From NCBI RefSeq assembly GCF_011058255.1, contig NZ_JAALFH010000060.1, forward strand, positions 124,001-188,000: a stretch of DNA of 64,000 nt, given 5' to 3'. Of the stretch, positions 7,080 to 12,477 are shown one piece after another (position 1 is the stretch's first letter; each line of letters opens with the position of its first letter). The stretch comes from Thioalkalivibrio sp. XN8 (lineage in GTDB: Bacteria; Pseudomonadota; Gammaproteobacteria; Steroidobacterales; XN24). The notes beneath the pieces were generated by a model, which was not told the origin of the DNA, ran no database searches, and was given only the letters and a program-made list of their open reading frames with translations. The position numbers and the translations under genes were made by a program.

Positions 7080-7745
7080 ATGAACAAACTGATCAAGCAA
7101 GCTTGCATTGCGGCAGCGCTCGCGCTGCTGGCAACGCCACTCACCACGACCGCGCAGGAACGCCAGGTCGCCCCGCCGGAGAGGAAACCCCAGGCCGGGC
7201 TGTTGCTCCCCGCAGTCCAGAAAGCGCAGGACCAGGGGCAGGAACAGGAGCCCAATGAGGAAGAGCGGGTGATGCCGCACTACCATGGGCCCATCGGCGG
7301 CCAGGCCCAGCAGGGCATCGAACCCGACGAGATCGACGCGGCGGCCCGCGACCGTGCCGCCACCGCGCCGGCGCCGCGCGGCCGAGTCGACAAGGCCACG
7401 CCCATGCGCGGGCCGGCCGCGGGTGGCAGGGCCCTCACCACGCAGCAGATGATGGCCAAGCTGCAGCCCTCCGCTCACCGGGCCTCTTCGCATCGCCGGA
7501 TCCTGCCGATGGCCGCGACCCAGGGGAATGAAGCCGGCAGCGGGCCGACTTCGGTGCAGCAGCCCAGGCCGTCCGAGCCCCCGAAGTACGAGATCGAGGA
7601 ATGCGGCACCGCCACTAACCCGGCGATCTGCTGCCACCACGAGGCGGGCGACGGCTCCAGCTGCAACCTGTTCATCATGCTGTGTGAGCACCACGGCGGC
7701 ACGGGCAAAGGCGACGGCGAGTCGGCAATCTGCTCGGACTGGTAA
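7080..7745 (+). CDS. Small exported protein with C-terminal Cys/His cluster
   Basis: A 221-aa protein with a signal peptide (MNKLIKQACIAAALALLATP ... TTTAQ). The middle is Pro/Gln/Glu-rich and probably disordered. The last 50 residues hold six Cys and four His: ECGTATNPAICCHHEAGD, then SSCNLFIMLCEHHGG and AICSDW. This could be a disulfide-knotted or metal-binding head. The start at 7080 has GAGCAGGAG just upstream. It follows the two preceding exported-protein genes by 68 bases in the same direction, so it is likely part of one unit. I do not recognise a family. Confidence 0.75.
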   Translation: MNKLIKQACIAAALALLATPLTTTAQERQVAPPERKPQAGLLLPAVQKAQDQGQEQEPNEEERVMPHYHGPIGGQAQQGIEPDEIDAAARDRAATAPAPRGRVDKATPMRGPAAGGRALTTQQMMAKLQPSAHRASSHRRILPMAATQGNEAGSGPTSVQQPRPSEPPKYEIEECGTATNPAICCHHEAGDGSSCNLFIMLCEHHGGTGKGDGESAICSDW

Positions 7746-7821: not shown

Positions 7822-8421
7822 TCAGAACGCCAGCCGCTCGCCGGCGGCGAGGCACTCCGCGTGCCGGTAGCAGCTCACCAGGTGGTCGTTCACCAGGCCG
7901 GTGGCCTGCAGGTGGGCATAGACGATGGTGCTGCCGACGAAGCGGAAGCCAAGGGTCTTGAGTTCCTTGCTGACGCAATCGGACAGCGGCGTGGTGGCGG
8001 GGACCTCGCTCATCTCGCGCCAGCGGTTCACCACCGGGCGCCCGTCGACGAAGCGCCATAGCCAGGCGCTGAAGCTGCCGTGGCGCGCCTGCAGCTCGAG
8101 GAAGGCGCGGGCGTTGCCGATCGCCGCCTCGATCTTCTGGCGGTTGCGGATGATGCCGGGATCACCCACCAGCCGTGCCACGCTGCGGCGGTTGAAGCGC
8201 GCTACGCGCTCGGGATCGAACGCGGCGAAGGCCCGGCGGTAACCCTCGCGCTTGTGCAGCACGGTGGCCCAGGACAGCCCGGCCTGCGCGCTTTCCAGCA
8301 CCAGGAACTCGAACTGCCCCCGGTCGTCGGTGACGGGCGTGCCCCATTCCTGGTCGTGGTAGGCCTGGTAGGCGTCGCTGACGCCAAGGCACCAGTCACA
8401 CCGCTGGCGAACGTCGGCCAT
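7822..8421 (-). CDS. tag: DNA-3-methyladenine glycosylase I
   Basis: Excises 3-methyladenine from alkylated DNA. From the chosen start (MADVRQRCDWC) it is 199 aa, close to E. coli Tag. The Tag zinc-site residues are visible: Cys8 in RCDWC, His22 in YHDQEWG, and the C-terminal His and Cys in NDHLVSCYRH. The central motif SWATVLHKREGYRRAF and the KTLGFRFVGSTIVYAHLQATG segment also fit the family. An in-frame upstream ATG at 8454 would add 11 residues that overlap the terminator of the preceding gene, so 8421 is preferred. Confidence 0.95.
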   Translation of the reverse strand: MADVRQRCDWCLGVSDAYQAYHDQEWGTPVTDDRGQFEFLVLESAQAGLSWATVLHKREGYRRAFAAFDPERVARFNRRSVARLVGDPGIIRNRQKIEAAIGNARAFLELQARHGSFSAWLWRFVDGRPVVNRWREMSEVPATTPLSDCVSKELKTLGFRFVGSTIVYAHLQATGLVNDHLVSCYRHAECLAAGERLAF

Positions 8422-8434
8422 GCGCGCCTCCAGC

Positions 8435-8470
8435 AAGAAAAGGGCCCGCGGCATCCGCCACAGGCCCTTC
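8435..8470 (-). terminator. Rho-independent terminator of the HvfA-like gene
   Basis: Read on the minus strand, AAGGGCC (8463-8469) pairs with GGCCCTT (8440-8446), with a smaller GCGG/CCGC pairing inside the loop. The T-rich run TTTTCTT begins at the end of the second arm. It lies 24 bases after the stop of the Cys-repeat peptide gene, which suggests that gene is transcribed alone. Confidence 0.65.
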
Positions 8471-8493
8471 GTTCATGCCCGCAGAGCTGCTGC

Positions 8494-8802
8494 TCAGGCG
8501 GCCCCGCACTTGCCCTCGCCGCCCTTCTTGTCCTTGCTCTTGTCCTTGTCCTTGCTCTTGTCGCCGCCGCACTTGCCTTCGCCACACTTGCCTTCGCCGC
8601 ACTTGCCCTCGGCCTTCTTCTCGTCGCCCTTGTGCTCTTCCTTCTTGCCGTGCTCGTCGATGGCGGCGTCGGTCATGTAGCCGCTCGACAGGGCCGTCAT
8701 GCCGAAGGGGTTGGCGTCGGCCTGGGCGGCCTGGACGCCGGCCAGGGATCCCGCCAGCGCGATGCCGGCAGCCAGTGATACGGGCTTGATGGACTTCTTC
8801 AT
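8494..8802 (-). CDS. HvfA-like Cys-repeat precursor peptide (predicted RiPP metallophore)
   Basis: A 102-aa protein. MKKSIKPVSLAAGIALAGSL ... AAQA is a signal peptide. NPFGMTALSSGYM just after it resembles the conserved segment of the HvfA/bufferin family. The C-terminal half is Lys/Asp/Glu-rich with four EGKCG motifs, three of them in tandem. In that family the Cys of EGKCG is changed to oxazolone/thioamide by an MNIO (DUF692) enzyme with a DUF2063 partner, giving periplasmic copper-binding peptides. No MNIO or partner gene is adjacent here (neighbours are tag and hemB). SD GAGGAG precedes the ATG by 7 bases. Being a plain metal-binding peptide is the alternative. Confidence 0.8.
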   Translation of the reverse strand: MKKSIKPVSLAAGIALAGSLAGVQAAQADANPFGMTALSSGYMTDAAIDEHGKKEEHKGDEKKAEGKCGEGKCGEGKCGGDKSKDKDKSKDKKGGEGKCGAA

Positions 8803-8863
8803 GGTGTTGCTCCTCTTTCCTCTTGGGTTGCCTGCGGGGTGCGGGCCTGTGCGCCAGGCGTAA

Positions 8864-10036
<1,173 letters not shown>

Positions 10037-10049
10037 GGCCGCCGGCGCG

Positions 10050-10877
10050 TTGGCCATCCTCGACCGCTATGCGCTGTTCGGCCACCCAGTCGCGCACAGC
10101 CGCTCACCCTGGCTCCACGCGCGCTTCGCCGAGCTGACCGGGGAGGGGCTGTCCTACGAAGCCCGCGACGTGCCGCCCGGCGACTTCGACCAGGCGCTGG
10201 CGGAGTTCCTGCACGGCGGCGGCAAGGGCCTGAACATCACGGTGCCGCACAAGCTCGCCGCCTACGCCGCGGTCGACGAACTCACCGAGCGGGCCCGGCG
10301 GGCCGGCGCCGTGAACACCATCGCCGTGACGCCGGGCGGCCTGCTGGGCGACAACACCGACGGTGCCGGCCTGCTGCGCGACCTGGAACACAACCTCGGG
10401 CTGGCGCTCCACGGCATGCGGATCCTGCTGGTGGGCGCCGGCGGCGCGGCCCGCGGCGCGCTGGGGCCGCTGCTGGACGCCGGGCCGGCCGAGCTGTTGA
10501 TCGCCAACCGCCATGCCGACAAGGCCCGGGCGCTGGCCGCGGATTTCGCCGGCGCCGGGCCGGTCTCCGGCGGCGGGCTGGAAGCGGCCCACGGGCCCTT
10601 TGCGCTGGTAGTCAACGCCACCTCCGCCAGCCTGCACGACGAAGTCCCGGCGCTGCCCGGCGACGCCGTCGATCCCGGCACCTTCTGCTATGACATGGCC
10701 TACGGCAGCGGCCCGACGGCATTCATGCGCTGGGCGGCGGACCGGGGCGCGGCCGGCACCGCGGACGGCATCGGGATGCTGGTCGAGCAGGCGGCGGAGT
10801 CCTTCGCCCTGTGGCGCGGCGTGCGCCCCCCCACGGCGCAGGCGCTGGCCGAGCTGAAGCGCCAGGCCGGGGCATGA
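10050..10877 (+). CDS. aroE: Shikimate dehydrogenase (NADP+)
   Basis: Reduces 3-dehydroshikimate to shikimate. The 275-aa protein has the substrate-site motifs FGHPVAHSRSPWLHARF near the N-terminus, NITVPHK (catalytic Lys) and GAVNTI, then GDNTDGAG. The Rossmann loop LLVGAGGAARG follows, and VNATSASL later. The likely start is TTG at 10050, since no ATG or GTG lies before the substrate motif. It follows hemB by 13 bases, so the two are probably co-transcribed. Confidence 0.95.
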   Translation: MAILDRYALFGHPVAHSRSPWLHARFAELTGEGLSYEARDVPPGDFDQALAEFLHGGGKGLNITVPHKLAAYAAVDELTERARRAGAVNTIAVTPGGLLGDNTDGAGLLRDLEHNLGLALHGMRILLVGAGGAARGALGPLLDAGPAELLIANRHADKARALAADFAGAGPVSGGGLEAAHGPFALVVNATSASLHDEVPALPGDAVDPGTFCYDMAYGSGPTAFMRWAADRGAAGTADGIGMLVEQAAESFALWRGVRPPTAQALAELKRQAGA

Positions 10878-10881
10878 GGCA

Positions 10882-11466
10882 GTGAGCCTCGAGGCTTTCC
10901 TGGTCCCGCTGGGCGTGGTGGCGCTGGCCGAGCTGGGCGACAAGTCCCAGCTGCTCTCCTTCATGCTCGCGGCCCGTTTCCGCGTCGTCGCGCCGATCGT
11001 TGCCGGGATCTTCGTCGCGGCGCTGGCCAATCACCTGCTGGCGGGCGCCGTCGGGGCGTGGCTGGTGGCGACGTTGGGGCCCGAGGGCCTGCGCTGGGCT
11101 GTCGGCGGAGGATTTCTGGCCATTGCGCTCTGGCTGCTGGTGCCGGACCGGGACGCGCCCGAAGAAGCGCTGCCGGCGGCACGTTTCGGCGCTTTCGGCA
11201 CTACGCTGCTCGCCTTCTTCATCGCCGAGTTCGGCGACAAGACCCAGGTCTCGGCGGTGGCGCTGGTGGCCCATTACGAGGCCTTCCTGCCCGTGGTGGC
11301 GGGCACCACGCTCGGCATGACCCTGGCCAACGTCCCGGGCGTGTTCCTCGGCGATCGCCTGGCGGCACGGCTGCCGGTGCGGGCGATCACGCTGGTGGCC
11401 GCCGGCGTGTTCGGGGTGCTGGGTTTCCTGGCGCTGGCCGGCGCCGGCGAGGCGTACGGGCTCTAG
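10882..11466 (+). CDS. TMEM165/GDT1-family (UPF0016) cation transporter
   Basis: A 194-aa membrane protein with about six hydrophobic helices in two repeats. Each repeat carries the family motif: ALAELGDKSQLLSFMLA near residue 13 and IAEFGDKTQVSAVAL near residue 113. Bacterial relatives export Mn2+, and eukaryotic ones move Ca2+ or Mn2+ against H+. The start is GTG at 10882, 4 bases after aroE. With DmeF next, it fits a small divalent-cation cluster, though the ion cannot be read from sequence. Confidence 0.9.
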   Translation: MSLEAFLVPLGVVALAELGDKSQLLSFMLAARFRVVAPIVAGIFVAALANHLLAGAVGAWLVATLGPEGLRWAVGGGFLAIALWLLVPDRDAPEEALPAARFGAFGTTLLAFFIAEFGDKTQVSAVALVAHYEAFLPVVAGTTLGMTLANVPGVFLGDRLAARLPVRAITLVAAGVFGVLGFLALAGAGEAYGL

Positions 11467-11487
11467 CCCACGAAGAGGTCCTTATCG

Positions 11488-12477
11488 ATGAACCAGGATA
11501 CGCAGGCCCCCTGGGCCCACACGCACCAGTTCGATGCCGGCAGCCAGGCGGGCGAGCGCGGCACCCTGATCGTGCTGGGCATCACGCTCACGGCCATGGT
11601 GATCGAGATTTTCTCGGGCTTGTGGTTCAACTCCATGGCCCTGCTGGCCGACGGCTGGCACATGGGCTCGCATGCGCTGGCGATCGGCCTCAGCGCCTTC
11701 GCCTATATCGCCGCCCGTCGCTTCGCCGACGACCGGCGCTTCGCCTTCGGCACCTGGAAGATCGAGGTCCTGGCCGGCTTTGCGAGCGCGCTGATGCTGC
11801 TGGTGGTGGCGCTGCTGATGGTGGTCGCCTCGGTCGAGCGCATGATCTCGCCGCAGCCGATCCGCTACCAGGAAGCCATCGCCGTCGCGATCCTCGGGCT
11901 CATCATCAACATCGTGTGCGCCCTGATCCTCGGCCGGGCCCATCACCACGACCACCATCATGGCCACGACTATGCGCCCGACGACCATGACCACGACCAT
12001 GAACACGGCCACCAGCACCACGACCTGAACCTGAAGGCCGCCTACGTGCACGTGCTGGCCGATGCCGCCACCTCCGTGCTCGCAATCATTGCGCTGGCCG
12101 GCGGGTGGCTGTTCGGCTGGGCCTGGCTGGATCCCATGATGGGCATCGTCGGCGCGGTTCTGATCTCGATCTGGGCGCGCAACCTCATCAGCCAGACGGG
12201 GAAGGTGCTGCTCGATCGCGAGATGGACCATCCCATTGTCCCGCGCATCAGGCGCGCCATCGCGGCCGCCGGGAGCGAGTCCGGCACCGAGATCACTGAC
12301 CTGCACGCCTGGCGGGTCGGAAAGCGCGCCTATGCCGTGACGCTGACCCTGGTCACCCGGCACCCGCACCTCAGCGCGGCCGATGTCCGGTCCTGGCTCG
12401 CCGGCCTGGGCGACGTGGCCCACGCGACCATCGAAATCCACCGGGTCGCAGGCGAGACCGCCGCGCCCCGGGACTAG
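11488..12477 (+). CDS. dmeF: Cation diffusion facilitator, DmeF-like Co/Ni/Zn exporter
   Basis: Inner-membrane metal/H+ antiporter of the CDF family, 329 aa, with six helices and a C-terminal cytoplasmic domain. The transport-site motif HMGSHALAIGL carries the His/Asp pattern, with a second site HVLADAATSVLAI. Between helices 4 and 5 lies a long His/Asp-rich loop: over 20 His between about residues 152 and 180. The N-terminal WAHTHQF and the large His loop are typical of DmeF, which exports Co2+ and Ni2+. The stop codon shares CTAG with the convergent hydrolase gene. Confidence 0.9.
   Translation: MNQDTQAPWAHTHQFDAGSQAGERGTLIVLGITLTAMVIEIFSGLWFNSMALLADGWHMGSHALAIGLSAFAYIAARRFADDRRFAFGTWKIEVLAGFASALMLLVVALLMVVASVERMISPQPIRYQEAIAVAILGLIINIVCALILGRAHHHDHHHGHDYAPDDHDHDHEHGHQHHDLNLKAAYVHVLADAATSVLAIIALAGGWLFGWAWLDPMMGIVGAVLISIWARNLISQTGKVLLDREMDHPIVPRIRRAIAAAGSESGTEITDLHAWRVGKRAYAVTLTLVTRHPHLSAADVRSWLAGLGDVAHATIEIHRVAGETAAPRD

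Follow-up and report, generated by a model that had tools for sequence, protein, structure and literature searches.

A minus-strand gene in the window (the 64,000-nucleotide stretch of Thioalkalivibrio sp. XN8 DNA analysed here) encodes a small peptide that begins with a Sec-like stretch, carries the leader NPFGMTALSSGYM and contains EGKCG four times; neither of the modifying-enzyme genes expected for such a peptide, MNIO (DUF692) and DUF2063, lies with it in the window. The locus thus raises the question of whether the peptide is modified at all, by which enzymes, and how its expression is controlled. The original prediction read it as an orphan precursor of the HvfA/bufferin type under single-gene control, which is either modified by enzymes acting in trans or works unmodified.

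The predicted reading frame and its features hold up (Table 1). A Lys start is followed by a hydrophobic stretch to AQA and by DANPFGMTALSSGYM; a charged linker then leads to EGKCG three times in tandem, and a KD-rich linker separates these from the final EGKCG. The signal-peptide features (KK, the hydrophobic stretch and A-Q-A) were read by eye. The back-translated repeat GARGGNAARTGYGG occurs four times in the window, every copy inside this frame, whereas dinucleotide shuffles contain it 0.02 times on average and none of 100 reaches four; the repeat DNA is present beyond chance expectation. The purine-rich AGAGGAAAGAGGAGCAACACC lies directly 5' of the ATG. Assignment to the HvfA/bufferin-type family is borne out by the NCBIfam KCGExKCG-domain model NF050137, which the peptide passes with 24.6 bits against a cut-off of 19.5. 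The HvfA equivalog NF050188 gives 20.9 bits against a cut-off of 95 bits, so that the peptide is not classed as HvfA proper, and Pfam gives it no above-cut-off match. The 3+1 arrangement of the motifs lacks the regular 17-residue repeat with two EGKCG, and the peptide is not placed in that subtype. Leader residues P32, F33, L38, G41, Y42 and M43 are invariant in an alignment of nine sequences including this one. The frame is intact, and comparison with relative G001 gives dN 0.10 and dS 0.40 over 95 alignable codons (dN/dS about 0.26) and with G002 dN 0.24 and dS 0.34 over 100 codons (dN/dS about 0.7), so that constraint is clear in the G001 comparison only.

Table 1. Features of the precursor locus in the window (nucleotide positions of the window, or residues of the precursor).
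Feature	Position	Strand	Remarks
hvfA-like EGKCG precursor gene, 102 aa	8494..8802	-	ATG start, TGA stop
hvfA-like precursor: Sec-like N-terminus	about residues 1-28		by-eye reading
hvfA-like precursor: leader NPFGMTALSSGYM	residues 31-43		
hvfA-like precursor: core, three tandem EGKCG	residues 65-79		
hvfA-like precursor: fourth EGKCG	residues 96-100		
hvfA 5' leader, purine-rich ribosome-binding stretch	8803..8835	-	like the DUF3379-hvfA leader in G001 and G002
Hairpin and U-run 3' of hvfA, probable intrinsic terminator	8435..8471	-	
tagA (PF03352 methyladenine glycosylase)	7822..8418	-	profile match
Remainder of hvfA-hemB intergenic region	8836..9016	.	sigma and DUF3379 genes here in many relatives
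hemB (PF00490), divergent neighbour	9026..10036	+	alternative in-frame ATG at 9017
aroE	10050..10877	+	presumed name

The genome to which the window belongs (G000; 3.11 Mb in 67 contigs, estimated 100% complete, with the window precursor on contig C25) contains a single MNIO match (C34:4973-5758) and, adjoining it, a single DUF2063 match (C34:4666-4923). The absence of both families from the window is thereby confirmed, and the finding that would have told against the original prediction, a genome with no MNIO gene, does not apply. The MNIO belongs to the HvfB family (NCBIfam NF003818, 422.7 bits, cut-off 360) and its neighbour is HvfC/PME1 (NF050145, 315.3 bits, cut-off 142; domains PF09836 and PF22106, NGO1945_C). 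Upstream of the pair are genes that we take to be rnfD, rnfG, rnfE and nth, together with one that is DUF1841-like, with a presumably ion-channel-like gene downstream; no EGKCG precursor lies beside the enzymes at this locus. Precursor and MNIO, on C25 and C34, are thus not adjacent.

A second EGKCG precursor was found at C17:45707-46192 (locus L105, 6956-9317), with six EGKCG motifs and an adjoining DoxX gene, and it outscores the window copy by both NF050137 and NF050188. A sigma gene lies divergently at this locus, together with a probable anti-sigma gene, whose product has no Pfam match over the cut-off and 19.2 bits in NCBIfam against a cut-off of 100; the gap carries TGCAATCA-N16-GTCA in both directions. 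G001 and G002 have precursor matches at one place each, so the C17 precursor was possibly gained. With precursors at C25 and C17 and one MNIO/HvfC locus, G000 has two detected precursors for one enzyme pair, and the window gene is no orphan at the genome level.

The available text of Gadgil and colleagues (PMC13097082) describes FonB residues Arg15/Arg16 and Asp249/Phe250 as contacting or processing the EGKCG substrate, with other MNIO groups differing there. The C34 enzyme has the motifs GLGLRR and LLERDFN, and the solved HvfB-like protein 3bww has GLGYRR and LLERDFN; we take the C34 motifs to be the FonB sites, equated by position only. An MNIO of this RR/DF type is present in 47 of 78 genomes (G000 plus 77 relatives), other types only in 14 and no MNIO in 17; the assembly of G039 has its MNIO split over two frames. 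The 47 RR/DF genomes include 42 with a detected precursor, against none of the 14 and none of the 17, NF050137 having covered all 31 genomes without the RR/DF enzyme and an alignment search (12 genomes in all) three of them. NF050137 at E 0.01 yielded 39 of the 42 precursors, and G014, G015 and G027 were added through the alignment search and context. The calls in G017, G042 and G055 are weak (E 0.004-0.006), and the precursors of G008, G017, G042, G055, G062 and G075 did not show the leader pattern. Fisher's test of the 39 NF050137 precursors against the RR/DF enzyme gives p about 2e-14, a value to be read with the relatedness of the genomes in mind, since it means that the genome counts are not independent. 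Contrasts within families f2, f4 and f15 run in the same direction, the precursor tracking the enzyme, and no precursor was found in five RR/DF genomes (G023, G030, G053, G056 and G069).

These distributions bear on the second option of the original prediction, that the peptide works unmodified. It would then be a periplasmic metal buffer rich in Cys and Lys. Repeated KCG motifs and the lack of an adjoining MNIO would suit such a role. The option is nevertheless highly improbable and finds no support, given that none of the 31 genomes without an RR/DF MNIO yielded a precursor (all searched with NF050137, three by alignment) and that precursor and MNIO have a predicted promoter in common in many relatives. 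The first option, action in trans, agrees with an HvfB/HvfC pair on C34 that has no precursor of its own and with the occurrence of precursors across the 78 genomes only together with that MNIO class.

Separation of precursor and enzymes is the usual state in the order, being found in 38 of the 42 precursor genomes (G000 included) and in 10 of the 16 sampled families; the two adjoin in G020, G047, G055 and G064. Draft contigs could mask proximity, a reservation from which the single-contig genomes G006, G062 and G067, with precursor-MNIO distances of 0.7, 1.0 and 2.4 Mb, are free. The precursor stretches fetched for 36 split genomes, some of which stop at a contig end, contain tagA in 31, hemB or aroE in 34, DUF3379 in 28 and MNIO in none; hemB and tagA are present at the G014 and G027 precursor loci too. 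The commonest gene order is hemB<>sigma-DUF3379-hvfA-tagA. The enzymes form a second conserved locus, MNIO-HvfC-(DoxX), positioned after rnf-nth, with nth detected in 16 of 20 MNIO stretches.

A named collection was also searched, and the following figures refer to its best 80 loci and are no census. MNIO is present in 63 of these, and 14 show the order nth, precursor, MNIO (Thiogranum, Thiohalobacter and Methylotenera among them); four contain hemB, three of those together with tagA (one being Woeseia sp. OFTM247). The slot between nth and MNIO that the precursor occupies in these 14 loci is empty in G000. Since the precursor often lies between nth and MNIO elsewhere in Gammaproteobacteria, it has probably moved, and the simplest reading of these gene orders is that the lineage of the window lost it from this slot at an ancestral stage. 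By its hemB and the layout of the locus, G000 falls near named Gammaproteobacteria. In locus L117 (Thioalkalivibrio sp. SpSt-1174) a precursor lies near hemB-aroE with no recognised sigma or DUF3379 gene.

The two loci appear to be connected by a predicted ECF promoter, TGTAATA-N16-GGTC, which precedes the sigma gene in 27 of the 28 genomes whose sigma upstream region was examined (out of 31 with DUF3379). The site consists of G[TA]AATA, exactly 16 bases and GGTC, mostly about ten bases from the start codon. In the 28th genome, G037, the site is present by pattern search and the sigma start is uncertain. Outside the 28, G058 and G072 have a site near sigma, and G029 has none in the stretch examined. 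The boxes of the 27 sigma-upstream sites yielded a weight matrix, with which the 230 bp preceding each of 64 MNIO genes were scored; the threshold of 10 was picked after the scores were known. A score of at least 10 is reached in 23 of 26 evaluable RR/DF genomes with DUF3379, compared with three of 19 RR/DF genomes without it (G024, G056 and G065, whose families otherwise have DUF3379), and the 18 rows for other MNIO classes score 0.6 at most. G034, masked upstream of its MNIO, is excluded from the 26. The RR/DF-type MNIO of G015 (on C2), which has the RR/DF residues and stands outside the weight-matrix table, has an exact motif 76 bp upstream, and in G058 a motif lies about 420 bp before an MNIO of another class, beyond the 230-bp test.

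The two loci might instead be functionally unlinked, the motif before MNIO being due to chance or belonging to another regulator. The pattern is short, three DUF3379 genomes (G019, G032 and G044) lack it before MNIO, and 41 of 4808 arbitrary 230-bp segments from the same loci, true sites included, reach a score of 10. A loose-spacer pattern (GTAATA and ATG) was rejected as not specific, its counts resembling the reversed control among partly listed matches, and exact spacing is required. With exact spacing there are 42 matches against five in the reversed control (33 chosen genomes). Together with the contrast between RR/DF genomes with and without DUF3379 and the low scores of the other MNIO classes, this makes an absence of any link improbable.

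Upstream scores of the precursors themselves vary with location. Those away from hemB in G010 (C21), G021 (C38), G024 (C48) and G065 (C134) score 15 to 19.8 and that in G034 (C49) scores 6.3, while scores of at most 4.6 are found for precursors at hemB without sigma (the window, G014, G027 and G036), for the C17 copy and for those adjoining MNIO (G020 and G064). The f12 precursors (G017, G042, G062 and G075) did not match the leader pattern and so were left unscored, and the additional copies in G037 (C453) and G047 (C71) fall outside this scoring. Further TGTAATA-N16-GGTC sites precede secreted-looking proteins at L328 (G028 C7), L311 (G024 C77) and L321 (G004 C41). These we take to be thioredoxin/TlpA-like or DUF1223-like, suggesting a wider periplasmic thiol regulon.

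DUF3379 (PF11859), found in 31 of the 78 genomes, is encoded next to the sigma gene and is a probable, rather than a proven, ECF anti-sigma factor. An H-x3-C-x2-C N-terminus, presumably the pattern of zinc-binding anti-sigma factors, is present in 25 of 34 DUF3379 proteins and absent from six f1 proteins and three others, and His115, Cys159 and His168 (L081 numbering) are invariant in all 29 aligned. In the predicted structure (mean pLDDT 84.7, pTM 0.56), residues 80-100 form a helix, the candidate membrane segment, and a beta domain is also present. Foldseek against the PDB gave this model no significant match (best E 0.07). VIA-align places the C-terminal beta domain near RseB/MucB chains at Z 7.5-8.0, a level also reached by common arrangements, and its top rank is the unrelated entry 1vr8 (Z 8.1); the likeness of the model to RseB/MucB is only suggestive. 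It recalls the envelope-stress control of RseA/RseB and MucA/MucB, from which DUF3379 differs in its invariant Cys and His residues, which suggest another signal. No paper on DUF3379 was found in the open-access collection searched.

The pair also occurs away from EGKCG precursors. Sigma-DUF3379-tagA is kept in G058 (L310, L243) and G072 (L242), where no hvfA or RR/DF enzyme was found. The G058 site precedes a small, weakly BufA2-like gene (18.1 bits, cut-off 60) adjoining its other MNIO, and is a case of the same switch with a different cargo. G029 (C7, L241) has a sigma-DUF3379 pair, with no MNIO or precursor found in the genome.

G000 is the sole genome without DUF3379 among seven f1 genomes, and what it has closest to the G001 sigma is only 35% identical. 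About 215 bases remain between hvfA and hemB. By eye, the hemB end of this gap is like that of G001 and G002 and the hvfA end keeps a similar leader, with the middle unaligned; DNA alignment of the gap with both relatives gives short matches only. Since both ends are alike and the gene order agrees, the sigma and DUF3379 genes were most likely deleted, and the single-gene state of the window precursor looks like a remnant of that loss. TGTAATA-N16-GGTC is absent from 8836..9016 (best score -4.2), and a minus-strand scan for a sigma-70 promoter of hvfA found none. As the switch is gone from G000, the window precursor would be transcribed in another way. The MNIO site is degraded, GAAATA-N16-GGTC in G001 corresponding to GCAATC-N16-CGTC in G000 (score 2.8), and the MNIO upstream score is below 3 in all eight precursor genomes, from four families, without sigma-DUF3379 at hemB/aroE (G000; G036; G014 and G027; G017, G042, G062 and G075). 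A separate candidate, the sigma2 motif GCAATCA-N15-17-GTC, was rejected as not specific, with 16 matches in G000 against four in the reversed control.

The signals proposed for the window gene itself are present, namely the purine-rich stretch and a strong hairpin after the stop codon followed by UUUUCUU (76 nt including the hairpin fold at -46 kcal/mol, z -4.8); a simple terminator scan did not list this hairpin. The single-gene control deduced from them is an incomplete description, as DUF3379 adjoins the precursor in 28 of 36 split genomes and the predicted sigma promoter is shared with the distant MNIO.

Loss of the switch could also mean that the window precursor is a relic in the course of being lost, while the enzymes now serve the C17 copy alone (hvfA2-DoxX, which has a sigma and a probable anti-sigma gene to itself). 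The window locus has lost sigma, DUF3379 and the promoter motif, its product has four EGKCG motifs to the six of the C17 copy and lower scores with both NCBIfam models, and dN/dS against G002 is about 0.7. This explanation is nevertheless doubtful, as the frame is intact, the leader, ribosome-binding stretch and hairpin are conserved or present, dN/dS against G001 is about 0.26, and other DUF3379-less genomes (G036, G014, G027, G017, G042, G062 and G075) have kept a precursor near hemB/aroE and tagA.

The window gene is thus best interpreted, with good though not full confidence and from sequence comparison, as an EGKCG (Lys-Cys) captophorin precursor (Buf_EGKCG/oxazolin) that is modified in trans and whose control has been rewired. 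Sitting less easily with this interpretation are the two precursors per enzyme pair, the C17 copy with its DoxX gene and better HMM scores, and the lack of a recognisable promoter in the window. By analogy with fontiphorin and oxazolin work, HvfC would recognise the leader, and the remote HvfB/HvfC pair could then act in the cytoplasm, turning the cysteines of the EGKCG motifs into 5-thiooxazoles in a leader-guided reaction, HvfB being the putative oxidising enzyme for each cysteine. For related peptides a mass change of about -4 Da per Cys is reported. The modified product would be exported by Sec and may bind periplasmic copper. An ECF sigma, restrained by DUF3379 acting as its anti-sigma factor in the membrane, would in many relatives switch on precursor and enzymes together.

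The fuller scheme, a RiPP pathway split in much of the order over two conserved loci with one ECF promoter, stress sensing by DUF3379 as a hitherto undescribed membrane anti-sigma factor and regulatory replacement in G000, has in its entirety about an even chance of being correct. DUF3379 would sense metal or thiol stress via its invariant His and Cys residues, and sigma/DUF3379 would activate the precursor at hemB and MNIO/HvfC at nth. In G000 the switch would have been deleted, the MNIO promoter (GCAATCA-N16-GTC) may be drifting towards the hvfA2/sigma2 motif, which stands in both directions at that locus, and the hvfA2/sigma2 locus itself may be newly gained. As the G000 MNIO site lies in coding DNA and perhaps derives from the older site, the involvement of the sigma2 motif is hypothetical.

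The window precursor resembles Buf_EGKCG/oxazolin (HvfA) and captophorin (fontiphorin) precursors in its Sec-like N-terminus, its EGKCG repeats and the presence of an HvfB-type MNIO and HvfC/PME1 in the genome, and differs in the separate loci and in having four motifs (3+1) without the regular 17-residue repeat. The accessible part of Antoine 2025 (PMC12452194) already describes EGKCG precursors, among them stand-alone ones, and genomes in which several precursors go with a single enzyme pair; precursor genes unlinked to MNIO exist there, as here, and whether a remote MNIO modifies their products, or nothing does, is left open. Compared with that part of the paper, what ties the remote enzyme to the precursor here is synteny, the class of MNIO and a predicted promoter in common. 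The closest regulatory parallel is Caulobacter sigmaF-NrsF, for which the available portion of PMC3511200 reports one ECF sigma with GTAACC-N16-CGAA promoters at separate loci containing DUF2282, DUF692 and DUF2063 genes. One ECF sigma, N16-spaced promoters and separate MNIO-related loci are common to both systems; in contrast to the Caulobacter system as given there, the promoter here is TGTAATA-N16-GGTC, DUF3379 replaces the six-helix NrsF, and the EGKCG precursor lies within the sigma gene cluster with the enzymes elsewhere. A sigma-controlled DUF692/DUF2063 operon appears in the available text on Sinorhizobium (PMC6180224). The open-access collection searched yielded no description of an arrangement in which precursor and enzymes occupy two conserved loci under one sigma/DUF3379 promoter. 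The link between precursor and remote enzyme is visible in shared genomes, enzyme class, the empty slot and, in many relatives, the predicted promoter, an approach that offers the assignment of other stand-alone precursors to remote enzymes and indicates DUF3379 as a probable regulator of copper-peptide production.

The tagA gene is on the same strand as hvfA, 75 nt downstream and past the hairpin, and is followed at 7081-7745 by a gene for a secreted-looking protein with a Cys-rich C-terminal end. On the other side, past hemB and aroE (10882-12477), are what we take to be a TMEM165/UPF0016-like gene and then a cation-diffusion-facilitator-like gene; the TMEM165/UPF0016-like gene adjoins aroE in G001 too.
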